This document shows positions 10,357-16,710 of a stretch of DNA of 64,000 bases, in pieces. Origin of the DNA: Mycobacteroides saopaulense. Its GTDB lineage: Bacteria; Actinomycetota; Actinomycetes; Mycobacteriales; Mycobacteriaceae. The stretch is from positions 4,340,001 to 4,404,000 of the forward strand of contig NZ_CP010271.1 of assembly GCF_001456355.1 (NCBI RefSeq), given 5' to 3'. The translations under genes were made by a program, and so were the position numbers. The first letter of the stretch is position 1, and every line of letters starts with the position of its first letter. The notes beneath the pieces were generated by a model that saw only the letters and a list, made by a program, of their open reading frames with translations, made no database searches and had not been told where the DNA came from.

Positions 10357-11043
10357 TCAGCGGGCCGATCCGTCAGGTTCACCCTTCTCATTCAGCGGCT
10401 GGCTACGAGACAGGCCCTCAACCACCCCGTTGGGGAACCCCGGAACATTCTTCTGACCAGAGGCTCCTGCCTGCCGATCCGTCAGGCAGGAGCTCTCCAG
10501 GGGCACGCTGGGCAAATCTGGCCAGCCCCTATCCGAGTGATAGGCAGGATAGGCACTGATCCGGGTAAGCAGCTTGAGCGGTCCGCCGTCGTCCTGCGAG
10601 TCGGAGACGTATGCCACCAGTTTGGCGTAGGCAGCGTGGTCGAGGTCTTTCGGCGATTTTTCCAAGTTGGCCTCTGCCACAAGACTTTCGCTGTCACCGC
10701 TGGGGCTCCAGGTGAATGGCCCCGGCTTGGCAGGTCCACACCGCACATATGTGGGGGTCCATCCGTTCTGCGTGGCTTTCACTATCTCAGCGAGCACCGA
10801 CGCCTCCGGCGTACTACTGATAGCCTTGGCGCTCTCGCGCGTAATCTTTTCTCGTTCAACGATATTGGTCCCACGGAAACCGCCATGCTTGATTTCGGCA
10901 GGCGCCAGCCACGGATCAGCGGCAAGGCTTGCGGAACGCTCAGAGTCGACGCCATTGGCATCGAACTTGCCACGATCACTTGGGCACGAAGCAGCGGTGA
11001 CGAACACCAGCGCCATCAACGAAGCGGACTTCAGATACTTCAT
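10357..11043 (-). CDS. Putative lipoprotein, third gene of the EspC-like/peptidase cassette
   Basis: A 228-residue protein with a short positively charged start (MKYLKSAS), a hydrophobic stretch and a Cys at position 20 in VTAASC, a plausible though imperfect lipobox. The mature part is polar, has one further pair of Cys (YVRCGP and SSCLTD), and shows no catalytic motif I recognise. Its start overlaps the stop of the large upstream gene by four bases (ATGA), so it is translationally coupled to it. By position it could be an accessory, chaperone or immunity lipoprotein for the upstream product. No family assigned. Confidence 0.7.
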   Translation of the reverse strand: MKYLKSASLMALVFVTAASCPSDRGKFDANGVDSERSASLAADPWLAPAEIKHGGFRGTNIVEREKITRESAKAISSTPEASVLAEIVKATQNGWTPTYVRCGPAKPGPFTWSPSGDSESLVAEANLEKSPKDLDHAAYAKLVAYVSDSQDDGGPLKLLTRISAYPAYHSDRGWPDLPSVPLESSCLTDRQAGASGQKNVPGFPNGVVEGLSRSQPLNEKGEPDGSAR

Positions 11044-12614
11044 TTGGGAGTCACCGAACCCCAGACACTCCAGCCGGTCGAACCACCGAGGGAGAAGTTT
11101 CCGCTCTCGAACTGGGATCTCGGAATCGTCATCATCTGGCCCGAGCTCGGTTCATAGATTCGCATGTTCTCACCCTCCATACCGGTGACCAGGACGACAT
11201 GGCTCGGATAGGCACCAGTCCCGATGAACAAAGGCACCGATTGACCCGACTGGACTGCCGACGCAACGGATCCGTAGTCACTCGCCCCCGAGAAAGGCGG
11301 ATGCAGACTCCAGTCGTAGCTAGTCCCCGGCACTCCCGGGCCCCCTGGGGTCCCCATTTCCTCCGCAGCTCCCCACGGCGGAGTACCAAGCCATTCCGGC
11401 CAATTGGTCCCGATGCTGGGCCCGACCGCGTTGTTGGTCAGATCGTGCATCTCCTTGGCTGCGGAATGGAACCTCCCCTCGGGAGTCGGCCCTTCCGGCG
11501 AGACGACATACGCATCCGTGTGGGGGTTGTAGCCGGTGATGATCTGCATGGCGTACATCGGATCGTTGATCATCTTCGCTACTACCAGCGATGACGACCC
11601 ACAGGTCGTACCGTCCGGTTGAGCAAGGACACCCGGATTTTTTTGCACGAATACCGTCGGGTCCAGCTCGGCGAGGTCCCCATCACTCATCTGGTCGATC
11701 TTCGTCGCGAAACGCTGCAGTGACTCGACGTCGCCTCCCCGCGCCAGAGCCGAGATGATCCAGTTGCGCCGGGCGTCGTCCTTGGCGTTGTCGAGCATCG
11801 CCTGCGCCTTGGCACGATCCTCCGGACTCATCGCCGCCAGGTTTGCATCGGCACGTTCTTGTACACCCGGCCGCAAACCGGTCCCGTCCTTGTGACCGTC
11901 TGGATCGTTCTTGACGTCCGACCAATTGTTCACCGAGCCGATCGCGCCCGCGGCCACCGAGGTGTGGTCGGGCAACGTGATGCCCTCCACGGCCTTCCCA
12001 AGTTCACCCTTGGCGGTGTTCACCGCCTTGTCGGCATCTCCATACGCGCCCGCAAGTTCTTCCACGCCGTGTATGACGTCGCCCACCAGCTTGCGCACAT
12101 ACGGAATCGCATCAAGTGGGTTCTTCGGGATATTGCCCCAGTCGACGTCGTCCTTGAGTGCGGCAAACGCGTTGTGCCACCGATCCCGCGCCTTCTCCAT
12201 CGCTCCGCCGAAGGTGTCGAGTGAGCCCGCGACGCCCGTGGCGGCCGGACCGATCGTGGTGGACCGCGTCTTGAAATTCGCGATGCTGGTGCGCGCCTTG
12301 TCCCCGGTTGTCTCGCCGTACGGATCTCCCGGGGTCCGTCCCCACACGGTGTCCGGGATCGTGTTATGTGCTTGCTGAACGTCGTTGGCGTGCCATTCCC
12401 CCATCGCCGGCGCCATTTCCCGCCAACGCGCGGCCACCTCCCGCACGGTCGCGGGGTCCGGCGGAGGGGGCTCGGTGGCCACGGCGATCACTTTCCGGAC
12501 CGCCCCAACGACCTTCCTGGCGATCGGCCACACCGTGCTTATGCTGATTTCACCGACCTGGCGCAGGTCGGCAATCACCTGCTCAAGCTGTTTTTGTGTG
12601 TCGCCCAGGGTCAT
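11040..12614 (-). CDS. Large helical protein with C-terminal papain/C39-like cysteine peptidase fold, candidate type VII substrate
   Basis: A 524-residue protein with no signal peptide. Residues 1-210 are predicted helical (Trp/Ala-rich, ending in YGDAD at 191-195, which fits the YxxxD/E export signal of ESX substrates). Residues 220-320 form a linker. The C-terminal domain has Cys338 in DGTTCGSSS, His472 in YPSHVVLVTG and an acidic residue in RIYEPSSG (Glu488), the order of a papain/peptidase-C39-like catalytic triad. It starts 11 bp after the EspC-like gene and overlaps the lipoprotein gene. Candidates are a secreted protease, amidase or antibacterial toxin; the fold is inferred from motif order only. 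Confidence 0.7.
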   Translation of the reverse strand: MTLGDTQKQLEQVIADLRQVGEISISTVWPIARKVVGAVRKVIAVATEPPPPDPATVREVAARWREMAPAMGEWHANDVQQAHNTIPDTVWGRTPGDPYGETTGDKARTSIANFKTRSTTIGPAATGVAGSLDTFGGAMEKARDRWHNAFAALKDDVDWGNIPKNPLDAIPYVRKLVGDVIHGVEELAGAYGDADKAVNTAKGELGKAVEGITLPDHTSVAAGAIGSVNNWSDVKNDPDGHKDGTGLRPGVQERADANLAAMSPEDRAKAQAMLDNAKDDARRNWIISALARGGDVESLQRFATKIDQMSDGDLAELDPTVFVQKNPGVLAQPDGTTCGSSSLVVAKMINDPMYAMQIITGYNPHTDAYVVSPEGPTPEGRFHSAAKEMHDLTNNAVGPSIGTNWPEWLGTPPWGAAEEMGTPGGPGVPGTSYDWSLHPPFSGASDYGSVASAVQSGQSVPLFIGTGAYPSHVVLVTGMEGENMRIYEPSSGQMMTIPRSQFESGNFSLGGSTGWSVWGSVTPK

Positions 12615-12625
12615 CGCGCACCGGC

Positions 12626-12922
12626 CTAGTTGAGCACCGGGAACTTGATTCCGGCGTCACTTAGGTTGCCTGCGTTGCGTTGATCCATCTCGACCAGTGC
12701 CTTGGTGCACGTGCGGATGTTCTGCGAGATCTGCTTCTGCACAGCCTCAACCGTGCCCAGCGCACCCGATACCCGGTTGCGTGCAGCGTTCATCGCATCG
12801 GTCAAGTCACCGAGGTCCTTGCCTTCGGTGGCGCGCAGCTTACCCTTGGCGAACTCGACGTGTGTATTGGTCGCATCCAGCTGCGACGCGCATTTTTCTG
12901 TCGCTACCGGATCGATCCTCAT
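12626..12922 (-). CDS. EspC/WXG100-like small helical protein (putative type VII secretion partner)
   Basis: A 98-residue helical protein, MRIDPVATEKCASQLDATN then a second long helix (AVQKQISQNIRTCTKALVEMDQ). Size, two-helix layout and position directly before a large ORF resemble the EspC/DUF2580-type proteins that accompany ESX substrates in mycobacteria. No WxG turn is visible, so it belongs nearer to the EspC type than to classical WXG100. ATG 12922 has AGGGGG upstream. It probably pairs with the N-terminal helical domain of the next gene. Confidence 0.65.
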   Translation of the reverse strand: MRIDPVATEKCASQLDATNTHVEFAKGKLRATEGKDLGDLTDAMNAARNRVSGALGTVEAVQKQISQNIRTCTKALVEMDQRNAGNLSDAGIKFPVLN

Positions 12923-13000: not shown

Positions 13001-13927
13001 CTAGCTGGGTAAAACGGCGGTGAGGTAGTTCCCCTGCTTCACCAGTTCGACGACTTCGTCCGGCAGCTCCGGGATCTGCACCCCGTAGGCCGCGGCCAGT
13101 TCCAGAGCATGCGCGCCCCGGACGGTCCACCCACGCGCGGCAAACCAGTCCTGCACGTCGGCTCGGTCTTCGTCGTAGAACAGCGAGCTGATGTCCACCT
13201 TCGACATGGGATGGCTGTCGTCGGCGTACTTCTTTTGGACCTCACCCCATTTGGAGATGTCCGGCCGACCGCGAGTCGCCTCGACGGCGATCTGGCTGCC
13301 CGATGCCGACAAGGCGACAACCCTCTCGAACAACAGATCTTGAGCGGCGGACGGCAAGTAGACGATCAGCCCCTCCGCCGACCACGCCGTCGGAGCCTCC
13401 GGGTCGAAGCCGGCCGCAAGCAATGCGGCCGGCCAATCGTCACGAAGATCCACGGCGACCTCACGGCGGTCACTGGTGGGTGTGGCGCGTTGTTCCTCAA
13501 GCACGCGATCCTTGAATTCCAAGACTTTCGGTTGATCCAGCTCGAAGACCTTGGTGCCCTCCGGCCACGGCAGTCGATGCGCACGAACGTCCAGCCCGGC
13601 CGCGAGGATCACCGCCTGCTTGCAGCCGGAATTCGTGGCACTCACGAAGAACTCGTCGAAGAATTTACTGCGCAAGCCGATCTGCCGAAATGCCGTCGTG
13701 GGGCTCAGGGCCGCCGTCTCAGGATTGTCCAGCAGTCCTATCAAATGCGGTTCGCCGGCGGCACGTACGAAATGTTCCGCGTAGCTGTCCCGCACCAGGG
13801 GATCGGTCTGCGCGTTCTCCACCGCGCGTGCCGCGGCCACTCCCAGCGCCGTGAATCCAACGCTCGACACGATGTCCCAGGAATCTCCCTCGCTGCGCGA
13901 CCAATCCTTGTCTGCGATGTCGGTCAT
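13001..13927 (-). CDS. Class I SAM-dependent methyltransferase, Rv0146-type (paralog 1 of 6)
   Basis: A 308-residue methyltransferase of the mycobacterial TIGR00027/leucine carboxyl methyltransferase-like family. The N-terminal signature GDSWDIVSSVGFTALGVAAARA is followed by the SAM-binding motif VILAAGLDVRAHRLPWP, ELDQPKVLEFK, VDLRDDWPAAL and PTAWSAEGLIVYLP. The substrate is unknown in the family; O-methylation of lipids or polyketides is suspected. It is the last of four tandem copies transcribed toward the left, 12 bp after its neighbour. Confidence 0.88.
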   Translation of the reverse strand: MTDIADKDWSRSEGDSWDIVSSVGFTALGVAAARAVENAQTDPLVRDSYAEHFVRAAGEPHLIGLLDNPETAALSPTTAFRQIGLRSKFFDEFFVSATNSGCKQAVILAAGLDVRAHRLPWPEGTKVFELDQPKVLEFKDRVLEEQRATPTSDRREVAVDLRDDWPAALLAAGFDPEAPTAWSAEGLIVYLPSAAQDLLFERVVALSASGSQIAVEATRGRPDISKWGEVQKKYADDSHPMSKVDISSLFYDEDRADVQDWFAARGWTVRGAHALELAAAYGVQIPELPDEVVELVKQGNYLTAVLPS

Positions 13928-13939
13928 TGATGTGTCCTT

Positions 13940-14866
13940 TCAGGCCGGCAGGGTGCAGGTCAGGTAGTGCATGGCGCCGGCCAGCTCTCTGATGTCATCG
14001 GGGACGTCCGGATATTGCACGCCGTACCGGTCGGCCAGCTCGAACATGTCCAGCCCCTGCGTGTTCCATCCGCGTGCGGAGAACCATTCCACCGGTGGCG
14101 TCTTGTCCTCGTCGTAGAACAGTTCGGTGATGTCGATCTTGCCAAAGGTGTCCTTCTCGGACCGATACTTCTGTTCCACCTTGGCGAATTGACTCATGCC
14201 CAGCGTGCCTGTCGGCCCTTCGATGGCCGCCCGGCTGCCGGGAGCCGATAGTTCGACGACGCGCTCGAACAGCAAATCTTGTGCCGCGGCAGGAAGATAC
14301 GGCAGTAATCCTTCCGCCGACCATGCGGTGGGCTGGCTCGGATCGAAACCGGCAGCCGTGAGCACAGCCGGCCAATCATCGCGTAGATCGACCGCCACGG
14401 CCCGACGATCACTGGTCGGCTCGGCTCCCTGCTCCGCGTACACACGGTCCTTGAAGGCCAGCACCTCCGGCTGATCCAGCTCATAGACCGTGACACCCGC
14501 CGGCCACGGGAGCCGGTGTGCCCGCGCGTCCAGTCCCGCTGCCAGGATCACCACCTGCCGAATACCAGAAGCGGCGGCATCCTTGAAGAACTCGTCGAAG
14601 AACCTGCTACGCATACCCATGCCGCGCAGGTATTCGAATGGAGATGCCTGCGGGGCATCGCGTTTGGTGATCGTCTCGATCAAATGTGGCTCGCCCGCCG
14701 CAAGGACGAAGTGCTTGGCGTACGGATCCGCGATCAACGCGTCGGGGCGCTCGCTTTCCACGGCCCGCTGTGCGCTGACACCCAATGCCGTGTACCCCAC
14801 ACTGGACACGATGTCCCAGGAGTCACCGTCGCTACGGGTCCATTTTCCTTCGTCGGTACTCGTCAT
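13940..14866 (-). CDS. Class I SAM-dependent methyltransferase, Rv0146-type (paralog 2 of 6)
   Basis: Also 308 residues, with the same order of motifs as the next copy: GDSWDIVSSVGYTALGVSAQRAVE, VILAAGLDARAHRLPWP, YELDQPEVLAFK, VDLRDDWPAVL and PTAWSAEGLLPYLP. Differences cluster in the C-terminal third (EWFSARGWNTQGLDMFELAD), the likely substrate-specificity region. It follows the third copy after nine bases, so all copies are probably one transcript. Paralogous with but clearly diverged from its neighbours, so the duplication is not recent. Confidence 0.88.
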   Translation of the reverse strand: MTSTDEGKWTRSDGDSWDIVSSVGYTALGVSAQRAVESERPDALIADPYAKHFVLAAGEPHLIETITKRDAPQASPFEYLRGMGMRSRFFDEFFKDAAASGIRQVVILAAGLDARAHRLPWPAGVTVYELDQPEVLAFKDRVYAEQGAEPTSDRRAVAVDLRDDWPAVLTAAGFDPSQPTAWSAEGLLPYLPAAAQDLLFERVVELSAPGSRAAIEGPTGTLGMSQFAKVEQKYRSEKDTFGKIDITELFYDEDKTPPVEWFSARGWNTQGLDMFELADRYGVQYPDVPDDIRELAGAMHYLTCTLPA

Positions 14867-14875
14867 CTCGGCCTC

Positions 14876-15775
14876 TCAGCGGTCTCGAACTGCGGTGAAA
14901 AACTTCTCGCCCATGAGCTTTTCGAATGCCTGGGGTAAATCGTGGAACGGGCGCCCGTAGGACACCGCGGCATCCATCAGGTTGACCTGTGTAACCGTCC
15001 AGCCGCGCTCCCCCAGCCAGCTCTTGGTGTCCACCCTAGGGTCGTCGAACCACAGATCGCGCAGATTCGGTTGTGCCTCACCGTCACTGGTGCGCTCCAT
15101 AACAGTCTTCATGGAGGCCGCAAAGCCGTCCAGCTCGCCAGGTTCGGGGCCCAGCTCGGCGGCCACCCAGCTTCCGGGGGCCGACAACTCGTTCAGCCTT
15201 TCAAAGAGCGCATCCTGCGCCCCGCCCGGCAGATAGGGCAGCAGCCCCTCGAGAATCCATCCCGTCGGCGCGTTGGCGTCAAAACCCGCCGCACGCAGGG
15301 CACTCGGCCAGTCATCACGTAGGTCGATGGCGACCGTCACGCGCTGGGCGCTGGGCTGCGCTCCAGACCTTCGTAAAACCTCGTCCTTGAACTGCAGGAC
15401 CTTTGGTTGATCCAGCTCGAAGACGGACGTCACGGCGGGCCACGGCAATCGGTATGCGCGCGAATCCAATCCCGCGGCCAGAATCACCTGCTGCCGCACT
15501 CCGGCACCCGCCGCGTCGGCGAAGAAGTTGTCGAAGAAGCGCGTCCGGACACCGACCCACTGCGCATTGAATGCCACGGAGCTCGTCATGTCTCCTGTGG
15601 CCACCGCAGCGGCCAGCTTCGGAGACCCTGCGGCGGCAACGAACGCGGCCGCGTGATCGTCATGCGCCAGTGGCGGATCCAACTTCGCGTCGAGCGCACG
15701 CGCGGCGGCGACCCCGAGCGCCGTGTAGCCGACGCTGGTGACGATGTCCCAGGTATCTCCGTCGGTGCGCACCAC
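14876..15775 (-). CDS. Class I SAM-dependent methyltransferase, Rv0146-type (paralog 3 of 6)
   Basis: The shortest copy, 299 residues, starting with GTG at 15775, two bases after the stop of the preceding gene. Motifs are GDTWDIVTSVGYTALGVAAAR, VILAAGLDSRAYRLPWP, FELDQPKVLQFK and PTGWILEGLLPYLPGGAQD. The family Ala-Glu-Gly motif reads ILEGLLPYLP here, a small departure near the active site. The C-terminus ends FEKLMGEKFFTAVRDR, matching the family ending (Y-L/F-T-A-V-L). Confidence 0.87.
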   Translation of the reverse strand: MVRTDGDTWDIVTSVGYTALGVAAARALDAKLDPPLAHDDHAAAFVAAAGSPKLAAAVATGDMTSSVAFNAQWVGVRTRFFDNFFADAAGAGVRQQVILAAGLDSRAYRLPWPAVTSVFELDQPKVLQFKDEVLRRSGAQPSAQRVTVAIDLRDDWPSALRAAGFDANAPTGWILEGLLPYLPGGAQDALFERLNELSAPGSWVAAELGPEPGELDGFAASMKTVMERTSDGEAQPNLRDLWFDDPRVDTKSWLGERGWTVTQVNLMDAAVSYGRPFHDLPQAFEKLMGEKFFTAVRDR

Positions 15776-15777
15776 GT

Positions 15778-16710
15778 CTACGCGCCCAACACCGCAGTGA
15801 AGTACCTGCTCTGCCCGATCGCATCGGTCAATTCATGCTGGCCGGCCAGCGGCGCCCGGTCGTAGCGCTCCAACAGTTCGCCGGCGGTGCTCACATCGAC
15901 GGTCCATCCATGACCGGTCAGCCATTTCGCCGGGTCCTCACGCTCGTCACCGAACCACAGGCTCGACGGCGGCGCGTCCTCCTCCACGATGCTCTTGAAG
16001 ATGCGCCGCAACACACCCTCCTCGTTCTCCATCGCACTCGACATCCGATCCGCCTGATTCCCAGGAGAGCCGAAATCCTCTACGGCAACTCGGCTTCCGG
16101 GCACGGATAGAGCGGCGATGCGCTGGAACAACAGGTCCTGGGCGGCACCGGGCAAGAAGGGAAGCAGCCCCTCGGCCAGCCACGCCGTCGGCTGTGCGGG
16201 ATCGAATCCCGCGGCCTTGAGCGCTACCGGCCAATCGTCGCGAAGATCTACGTGCAGATCATGAACGGTGGCCGTGGCCTGCACGCTGTGCTTGTCGAGC
16301 ACCTGCTTCTTGAACTCAAGCACCTTCGGTAGGTCCAGCTCGTACACCGTGGTGCCCGCCGCCCACGACAGTCGGTACCCGCGCACATCCAGGCCGGAAG
16401 CCAGGATCACCGCCTGCCGGATCCCGGCGTTCCCGGCCGCCAGGAAGAACTCGTCGAAATACTTCGTCCTCGCACCGAGATAGCTCGAGAACAGCTGCAC
16501 ATCGGGCTCCGCCGCGACGGTCGGATCGTCCAGCAGCTCGGAGAAGATCGGTGCCTCGACTGCCGTCGCCGCGACGAAATGCTGTGCGTAGTCGTCCCGC
16601 GCGAGCGGATCGGGCTTGCGCGCCTCTACGGCACGCATCGCGGACACAATGAGCGCGGTGGCACCCACGCTCGTGACGATGTCCCAGGTGTCACCTTCGG
16701 TTCTGGCCAC
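15778..16710 (-). CDS. Class I SAM-dependent methyltransferase, Rv0146-type (paralog 4 of 6)
   Basis: The promoter-proximal copy of the array, 310 residues, with a GTG start at 16710 preceded by GGGAG. Motifs are GDTWDIVTSVGATALIVSAMRA, VILASGLDVRGYRLSWA, YELDLPKVLEFK and PTAWLAEGLLPFLPGAAQD. It is the most divergent of the four in the SAM motif (GYRLSWA instead of A(H/Y)RLPWP). An AT-rich stretch upstream (16711-16800) probably holds the promoter of the array. Confidence 0.87.
   Translation of the reverse strand: MARTEGDTWDIVTSVGATALIVSAMRAVEARKPDPLARDDYAQHFVAATAVEAPIFSELLDDPTVAAEPDVQLFSSYLGARTKYFDEFFLAAGNAGIRQAVILASGLDVRGYRLSWAAGTTVYELDLPKVLEFKKQVLDKHSVQATATVHDLHVDLRDDWPVALKAAGFDPAQPTAWLAEGLLPFLPGAAQDLLFQRIAALSVPGSRVAVEDFGSPGNQADRMSSAMENEEGVLRRIFKSIVEEDAPPSSLWFGDEREDPAKWLTGHGWTVDVSTAGELLERYDRAPLAGQHELTDAIGQSRYFTAVLGA

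Follow-up and report, generated by a model that had tools for sequence, protein, structure and literature searches.

What do three tandem genes on the chromosome of Mycobacteroides saopaulense do together, when the first codes for a small helical protein, the second for a 524-aa protein with a peptidase-like C-terminal end and the third for a lipoprotein? The genes lie at positions 10,357 to 12,922 of the window, the whole stretch of 64,000 nucleotides that was analysed (contig NZ_CP010271.1, positions 4,340,001 to 4,404,000), and the source genome is one contig of 4.65 Mb. The best explanation is probably a chromosomal type VII (ESX) polymorphic effector-immunity cassette. A preliminary description of the DNA had proposed that the middle protein is exported by an ESX system and that the lipoprotein is its immunity factor or accessory. 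At the level of sequence comparison this proposal is strengthened, and the effector and immunity reading is favoured by the joint swap of peptidase domain and lipoprotein, by an I42 inhibitor in the third slot of related loci, and by orphan lipoproteins. The open reading frames (ORFs) bear out the tandem minus-strand arrangement of 98, 524 and 228 aa described earlier, with an 11-bp gap (12615-12625) between the first two genes and an ATGA at 11040-11043 common to the effector stop and the lipoprotein start. The features are as follows, L numbers denoting loci:

12626-12922, minus strand: small-protein ORF, 98 aa, a putative EspC/WXG100-like escort protein
11040-12614, minus strand: large-protein ORF, 524 aa, a predicted ESX effector with a WXG100/PPE-like N-terminus and a papain/C39-like peptidase
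11925-12614, minus strand: N-terminal module, residues 1-230 of the 524-aa protein, helical and WXG100/PPE-like, Trp91 invariant (alignment A5)
11040-11663, minus strand: predicted peptidase, residues 318-524 of the 524-aa protein, papain/C39-like, with Gln332, Cys338, His472 and Glu488
10357-11043, minus strand: third ORF, 228 aa, a predicted lipoprotein (Cys20) and proposed immunity protein
10390-11745, minus strand: exchangeable module, from about effector residue 291 to about the last dozen lipoprotein codons, as given by the identity profiles of L004/L006 and L003/L005 and by trees

Fourteen Mycobacteroides sequences, nine of which are distinct, were compared for DNA identity in successive segments. 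L004 (M. franklinii) and L006 are 98% identical in both the upstream gene and the small gene and 97% in effector codons 1-210, fall to 81% over codons 211-317, inside which the breakpoint lies, then to 60, 65 and 55% along the peptidase and 52% in the lipoprotein, and are back at 97% downstream. L003 and L005 follow the same course, with 90% in the upstream gene, 93% in the small gene, 91% and 79% in codons 1-210 and 211-317, 65, 64 and 57% in the peptidase, 52% in the lipoprotein and 94% downstream. The two breakpoints are the same in both pairs, the fall at about residues 291-300 and the recovery inside about the last dozen lipoprotein codons, which would explain the conserved tail of the lipoprotein. 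Trees of the flanks group L004 with L006 and L003 with L005, each at 100/100; trees of the peptidase tip and of the lipoprotein pair L003 with L004. Approximately unbiased tests, on pairs picked after the identities were known, reject the alternatives for the flank (p 6.5e-38), the tip (1.5e-4 and 3.6e-7) and the lipoprotein (7.8e-4 and 4.8e-6). Tip type matches lipoprotein type in all nine distinct Mycobacteroides loci, the window representing a third type. The C-terminal domain, whose variation the preliminary description had wished to see surveyed, does vary across these loci, and it co-varies with the downstream gene in the manner of a polymorphic cassette. That sister species have exchanged enzyme tip and lipoprotein as a unit suggests bacteria in conflict with one another.

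The third slot of the cassette is not always filled by the same protein. For one streptomycete-like genus it holds, in 10/10 loci, a lipoprotein of the chagasin cysteine-peptidase-inhibitor family (I42, PF09394), and we propose that these chagasin-family lipoproteins are immunity proteins; "chagasin" and "type VII secretion" were not found together in the literature searched. The window lipoprotein has no Pfam match at E 5, chagasin I42 (PF09394) included, and is modelled with a fold different from that of chagasin, weakly similar to the Mog1/PsbP fold. Judged by eye it is a lipoprotein, with a basic start, a hydrophobic stretch and a lipobox cysteine. This Cys20 is invariant in 20/20 rows of the lipoprotein alignment (A6), and so are Cys102, His169, Trp174, Pro175 and Cys186. 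The lipobox of the window is atypical, AASC, as compared to LAGC in L008 and LTGC in L020. The lipoproteins of L013, L014, L015, L019 and L020 are 344-402 aa and apparently contain a GWxxxxxxC-type unit twice; L008 and L011 have shorter lipoproteins.

The lipoprotein also occurs apart from the complete cassette. Among 196 Nocardioides genomes (genus g65) it was found in 13, and the fused effector adjoins it in 10 of these. In genome G602 it overlaps the stop codon of the gene upstream, and the genome has no peptidase match at E 0.001; in G928 the peptidase is a C-terminal-only match on a different contig, and in G872 a peptidase-only match in two pieces adjoins the lipoprotein. Over 22 cassette-related genomes there is one copy in 20, three in Segniliparus and none in G016, the genome of L018. 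The third copy in Segniliparus rugosus (G009:C2:632386-633102) is about 18 kb from an EccB gene. A different explanation, and an unlikely one, is that the large protein is no antibacterial weapon but a secreted cysteine protease for scavenging or for remodelling the envelope, with its safety inhibitor built in, like staphopain and staphostatin, and that the lipoprotein guards only the surface of the producer. This is hard to square with the swapping of domain and lipoprotein together as diverged, sharply bounded alleles, and with a lipoprotein retained where no peptidase was found.

The three-gene order is not confined to the window. A contig scan of genomes gave 34 loci related to the large protein, and profiles of the small protein and the lipoprotein were run on six-frame translations around them. 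The small gene lies upstream and the lipoprotein downstream in all 17 full-length loci (L003-L017, L019, L020), and because it recurs in this way the gene order is not a matter of chance. By the same profiles neither neighbour was matched in the other 17 loci, 16 of them peptidase-only (L021-L036) and the last L018. Of the proteins thus matched, 10 of 17 lipoproteins and 13 of 17 small ones had themselves been aligned to build the profiles, and L004 and L006 closely resemble some that had; the lipoproteins clearly outside the alignment (L009, L010, L012, L016 and L017) all matched with E no higher than 4.5e-32, and matches were likewise obtained for the small proteins clearly outside theirs, L009 and L013. 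Named sources of the cassette include Mycobacteroides, Segniliparus, Nocardioides, Janibacter, Phycicoccus, Aeromicrobium and actinobacterial metagenome-assembled genomes. The window's own genus was represented by 396 genomes, with the full-length gene in 8 and a C-terminal match only in 133 more; both neighbours are present in 8/8 of the former, five of which equal the window, L004, L005, L006 and L007. Searches of 61 genomes each, with few close relatives among them, found the lipoprotein in the window genome and G440 and the small protein in the window genome only.

This distribution also bears on a host-directed role, in which the effector would be exported by ESX against eukaryotic hosts or predators and the lipoprotein would be a chaperone, anchor or safety factor. 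Mycobacterial ESX substrates are generally known to target hosts often, and CpnT also has a WXG100-like N-terminus. The cassette is, however, found in many Nocardioides and also in Janibacter, Phycicoccus and Aeromicrobium, largely environmental genera, and the cognate swapping fits a conflict between relatives, making a host-directed role distinctly unlikely.

Some peptidase relatives stand alone. No small gene or lipoprotein was found by the profiles near the stand-alone C-terminal matches L045-L066, of which L057 and L066 both have the motifs SCGP, GTTPxG and YEPSSG. In L018 (Nocardioides, L018:5635-6717) the same peptidase follows another N-terminus, short and helical-looking, and the genome (G016) is without a lipoprotein match; L018 and the short stand-alone protein L066 have no Pfam match above cut-off. 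In two M. abscessus records, P0004 and P0046, the large and small proteins are truncated or altered, as would be seen if the locus had degenerated in some strains.

The C-terminal domain of the large protein is modelled with a papain/C39-like fold, as the preliminary description had anticipated. Gln332, Cys338, His472 and Glu488 follow one another in the order expected of a papain-like peptidase, with Gln as the oxyanion residue, then Cys, His and Asp/Asn/Glu. The last three residues are at the positions first reported. The alignment of the peptidase has 32 rows, the window and 31 database proteins, the truncated P0004 being left out; Thr337-Cys338-Gly339 and His472 are invariant, which upholds the expected conservation of Cys338 and His472, Gln332 is at least 90% conserved, and at position 488 E, D and N all occur, N in the streptomycete-like loci. 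PF13529 is absent among the Pfam matches of the window protein at E 5 and matches 1 of 33 family members (E 0.0041). A phmmer search of PDB sequences with the 524-aa protein gave no match at E 1, and NCBIfam none for any of the three proteins.

The N-terminal domain of the effector family is WXG100-like. WXG100_2 matches 14 of 33 members at E 0.1, the best at 3.3e-8, and L073 reaches 31.0 bits, above the cut-off of 27; the window protein alone is under it with 14.4 bits. The A2 profile found EsxA at E 9e-5 among PDB sequences, but its matches, apart from EsxA/EsxB, included many other proteins of helical or coiled-coil type. Structure matches of residues 1-230 to BAR-domain proteins and designed bundles were dismissed as common helical arrangements. 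One earlier claim did not hold: the YxxxD at residues 191-195 was rejected as an export motif because, with Y191, D193 and A194 invariant (A5), D195 is found only in the Mycobacteroides-type rows.

Any signal of the YxxxD type would instead be in the small partner. Over 14 aligned small proteins (A7) the sole invariant positions are A47, C72 and D80, and the residue four before D80 is Y or F in 10/10 non-Mycobacteroides rows and L in 4/4 Mycobacteroides rows, giving [Y/F/L]xxxD. The small protein is only tentatively EspC-like: a member of its family is upstream of 17/17 full-length effectors, but its score in the window is 16.3 of the 23.5 bits of the curated EspC cut-off (PF10824). EspC matches 7 of the 14 at E 0.1, and of 11 small proteins with EspC scores only that of L011 (Segniliparus) passes the cut-off, with 27.0 bits. 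No non-secretion family matched the small protein above its curated cut-off, in agreement with the initial assignment; DUF3540 (17.8 of 27.9 bits), Metal_resist and other Pfam matches were all below and were set aside.

EccB was present in 18/18 genomes with the fused gene and in 13/16 genomes whose loci lack it. A sample of the class, 394 genomes, has EccB in 147 and a peptidase match at E 1e-25 in 28. Of the latter, 12 have a WXG-type N-terminal region and all 12 have EccB, as compared to 10/16 where the match stays within profile positions 242-514. The 12 are the window genome, G578 and ten of genus g45, and the association is statistically weak because ten belong to one genus. Most non-mycobacterial cassette genomes have a single EccB, from which we infer that an ESX-4-like machine is the likeliest exporter of the pair. 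Two EccB genes are present in the window genome, one of them about 15 kb away from its best EspC-family gene (G000:C1:3506449-3506727).

In the most probable reading the 98-aa protein would bind the WXG100/PPE-like N-terminus of its large neighbour, and an ESX system would export the two. The papain/C39-like peptidase would be the warhead and would cut a target outside a neighbouring cell or in its envelope, and the lipoprotein, anchored to the membrane and facing outwards, would inhibit it, sparing the producer and its kin. Warhead and antidote would diversify as a matched pair, recombination in the flanking homology exchanging both together. More tentatively, it is possible that actinobacteria, mycobacteria included, use ESX-4-like machines with protease warheads for kin discrimination, that warhead domain and membrane-anchored inhibitor form one recombination module circulating as old alleles, and that unrelated inhibitors took on the antidote role on two or more occasions, chagasin-family lipoproteins being one such case. 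Three observations weigh against an effector-immunity cassette: the only warheads found behind this N-terminus, in a search that was not exhaustive, are diverged alleles of one peptidase family; stand-alone, antidote-less papain/C39-like relatives are widespread, in 133/396 genomes of the genus; and the EspC match of the small protein is weak. That the lipoprotein is instead the substrate or activator of the peptidase, the pair being an envelope maturation or signalling unit, would suit their tight linkage and co-diversification and the conserved Cys102/Cys186 and His169, but is very improbable with a peptidase-inhibitor family in the same slot and one lipoprotein in a genome without any peptidase match.

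Work on mycobacterial ESX systems has mostly concerned their use against hosts. Among bacterial toxins, TelC of Streptococcus intermedius, of the LXG/T7SSb kind, is not known to have any sequence relation to the present cassette. TelC/TipC is a pair resembling our proposal, a type VII secretion system (T7SS) toxin acting in the wall zone and a membrane-anchored, outward-facing immunity protein, but TelC is a lipid II phosphatase and the warhead here is papain/C39-like (PMC6193138). The Gram-negative pair Cpe1/Cpi1, which from its title appears to be PDB entry 9l5u, shares the papain-like toxin fold, the catalytic Cys and the adjoining immunity gene. Cpe1 is close in fold to the ComA and LahT peptidases, is associated with type VI secretion (T6SS) and contact-dependent inhibition proteins and cleaves GyrB/ParE, with a WXG/ESX-type N-terminus here instead, and Cpi1, as far as the available text goes, is not described as a lipoprotein, whereas our inhibitor candidate is predicted to be one (PMC12136450). 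Tox-PL1 and Tox-PLC39 (Zhang et al. 2012) are likewise papain-like toxin domains. According to that paper, Tox-PL1 is carried by actinobacterial WxG T7SS proteins, with Imm35 suggested as a protease inhibitor, and has the signature NC-H-DxQ as opposed to Q-x5-C, H, E/D/N here; Tox-PLC39 is given for type II secretion, T6SS and Photorhabdus virulence cassettes, with no immunity protein and not in actinobacteria (PMC3482391).

Also close are the polymorphic toxin-immunity cassettes of M. abscessus prophages, several of whose immunity proteins are predicted lipoproteins. Much as in our reading, they have a small WXG-100/ESAT-6-like protein, a toxin (about 50 kDa there) with an N-terminal WXG-100 domain and a downstream immunity protein matched to the toxin C-terminal domain; here the locus is chromosomal and syntenic in Mycobacteroides, with a papain/C39-like warhead (PMC8092301). 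The general kind is thus already known, and of the novelty first supposed there remains the papain-like, chromosomal, ESX-associated version with a swappable antidote, which was not found in the literature searched. The Mycobacteroides alleles are a ready set of matched and mismatched effector/lipoprotein pairs. Carriage by a phage or plasmid was considered and rejected: tblastn of the 524-aa protein gave one weak phage match (31% query cover) and no plasmid match, in collections not checked for the prophages of PMC8092301.

The cassette is flanked by the same neighbours in L003, L004, L006 and L007. In L005 the upstream neighbour is missing from the filtered ORFs, and the DNA there is 82-90% identical to that of the other four. 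Downstream lies one ORF of 341 aa and upstream four similar ORFs of 299-310 aa in a row (window 13001-16710, minus strand), which presumably are S-adenosylmethionine-dependent methyltransferases of one family.
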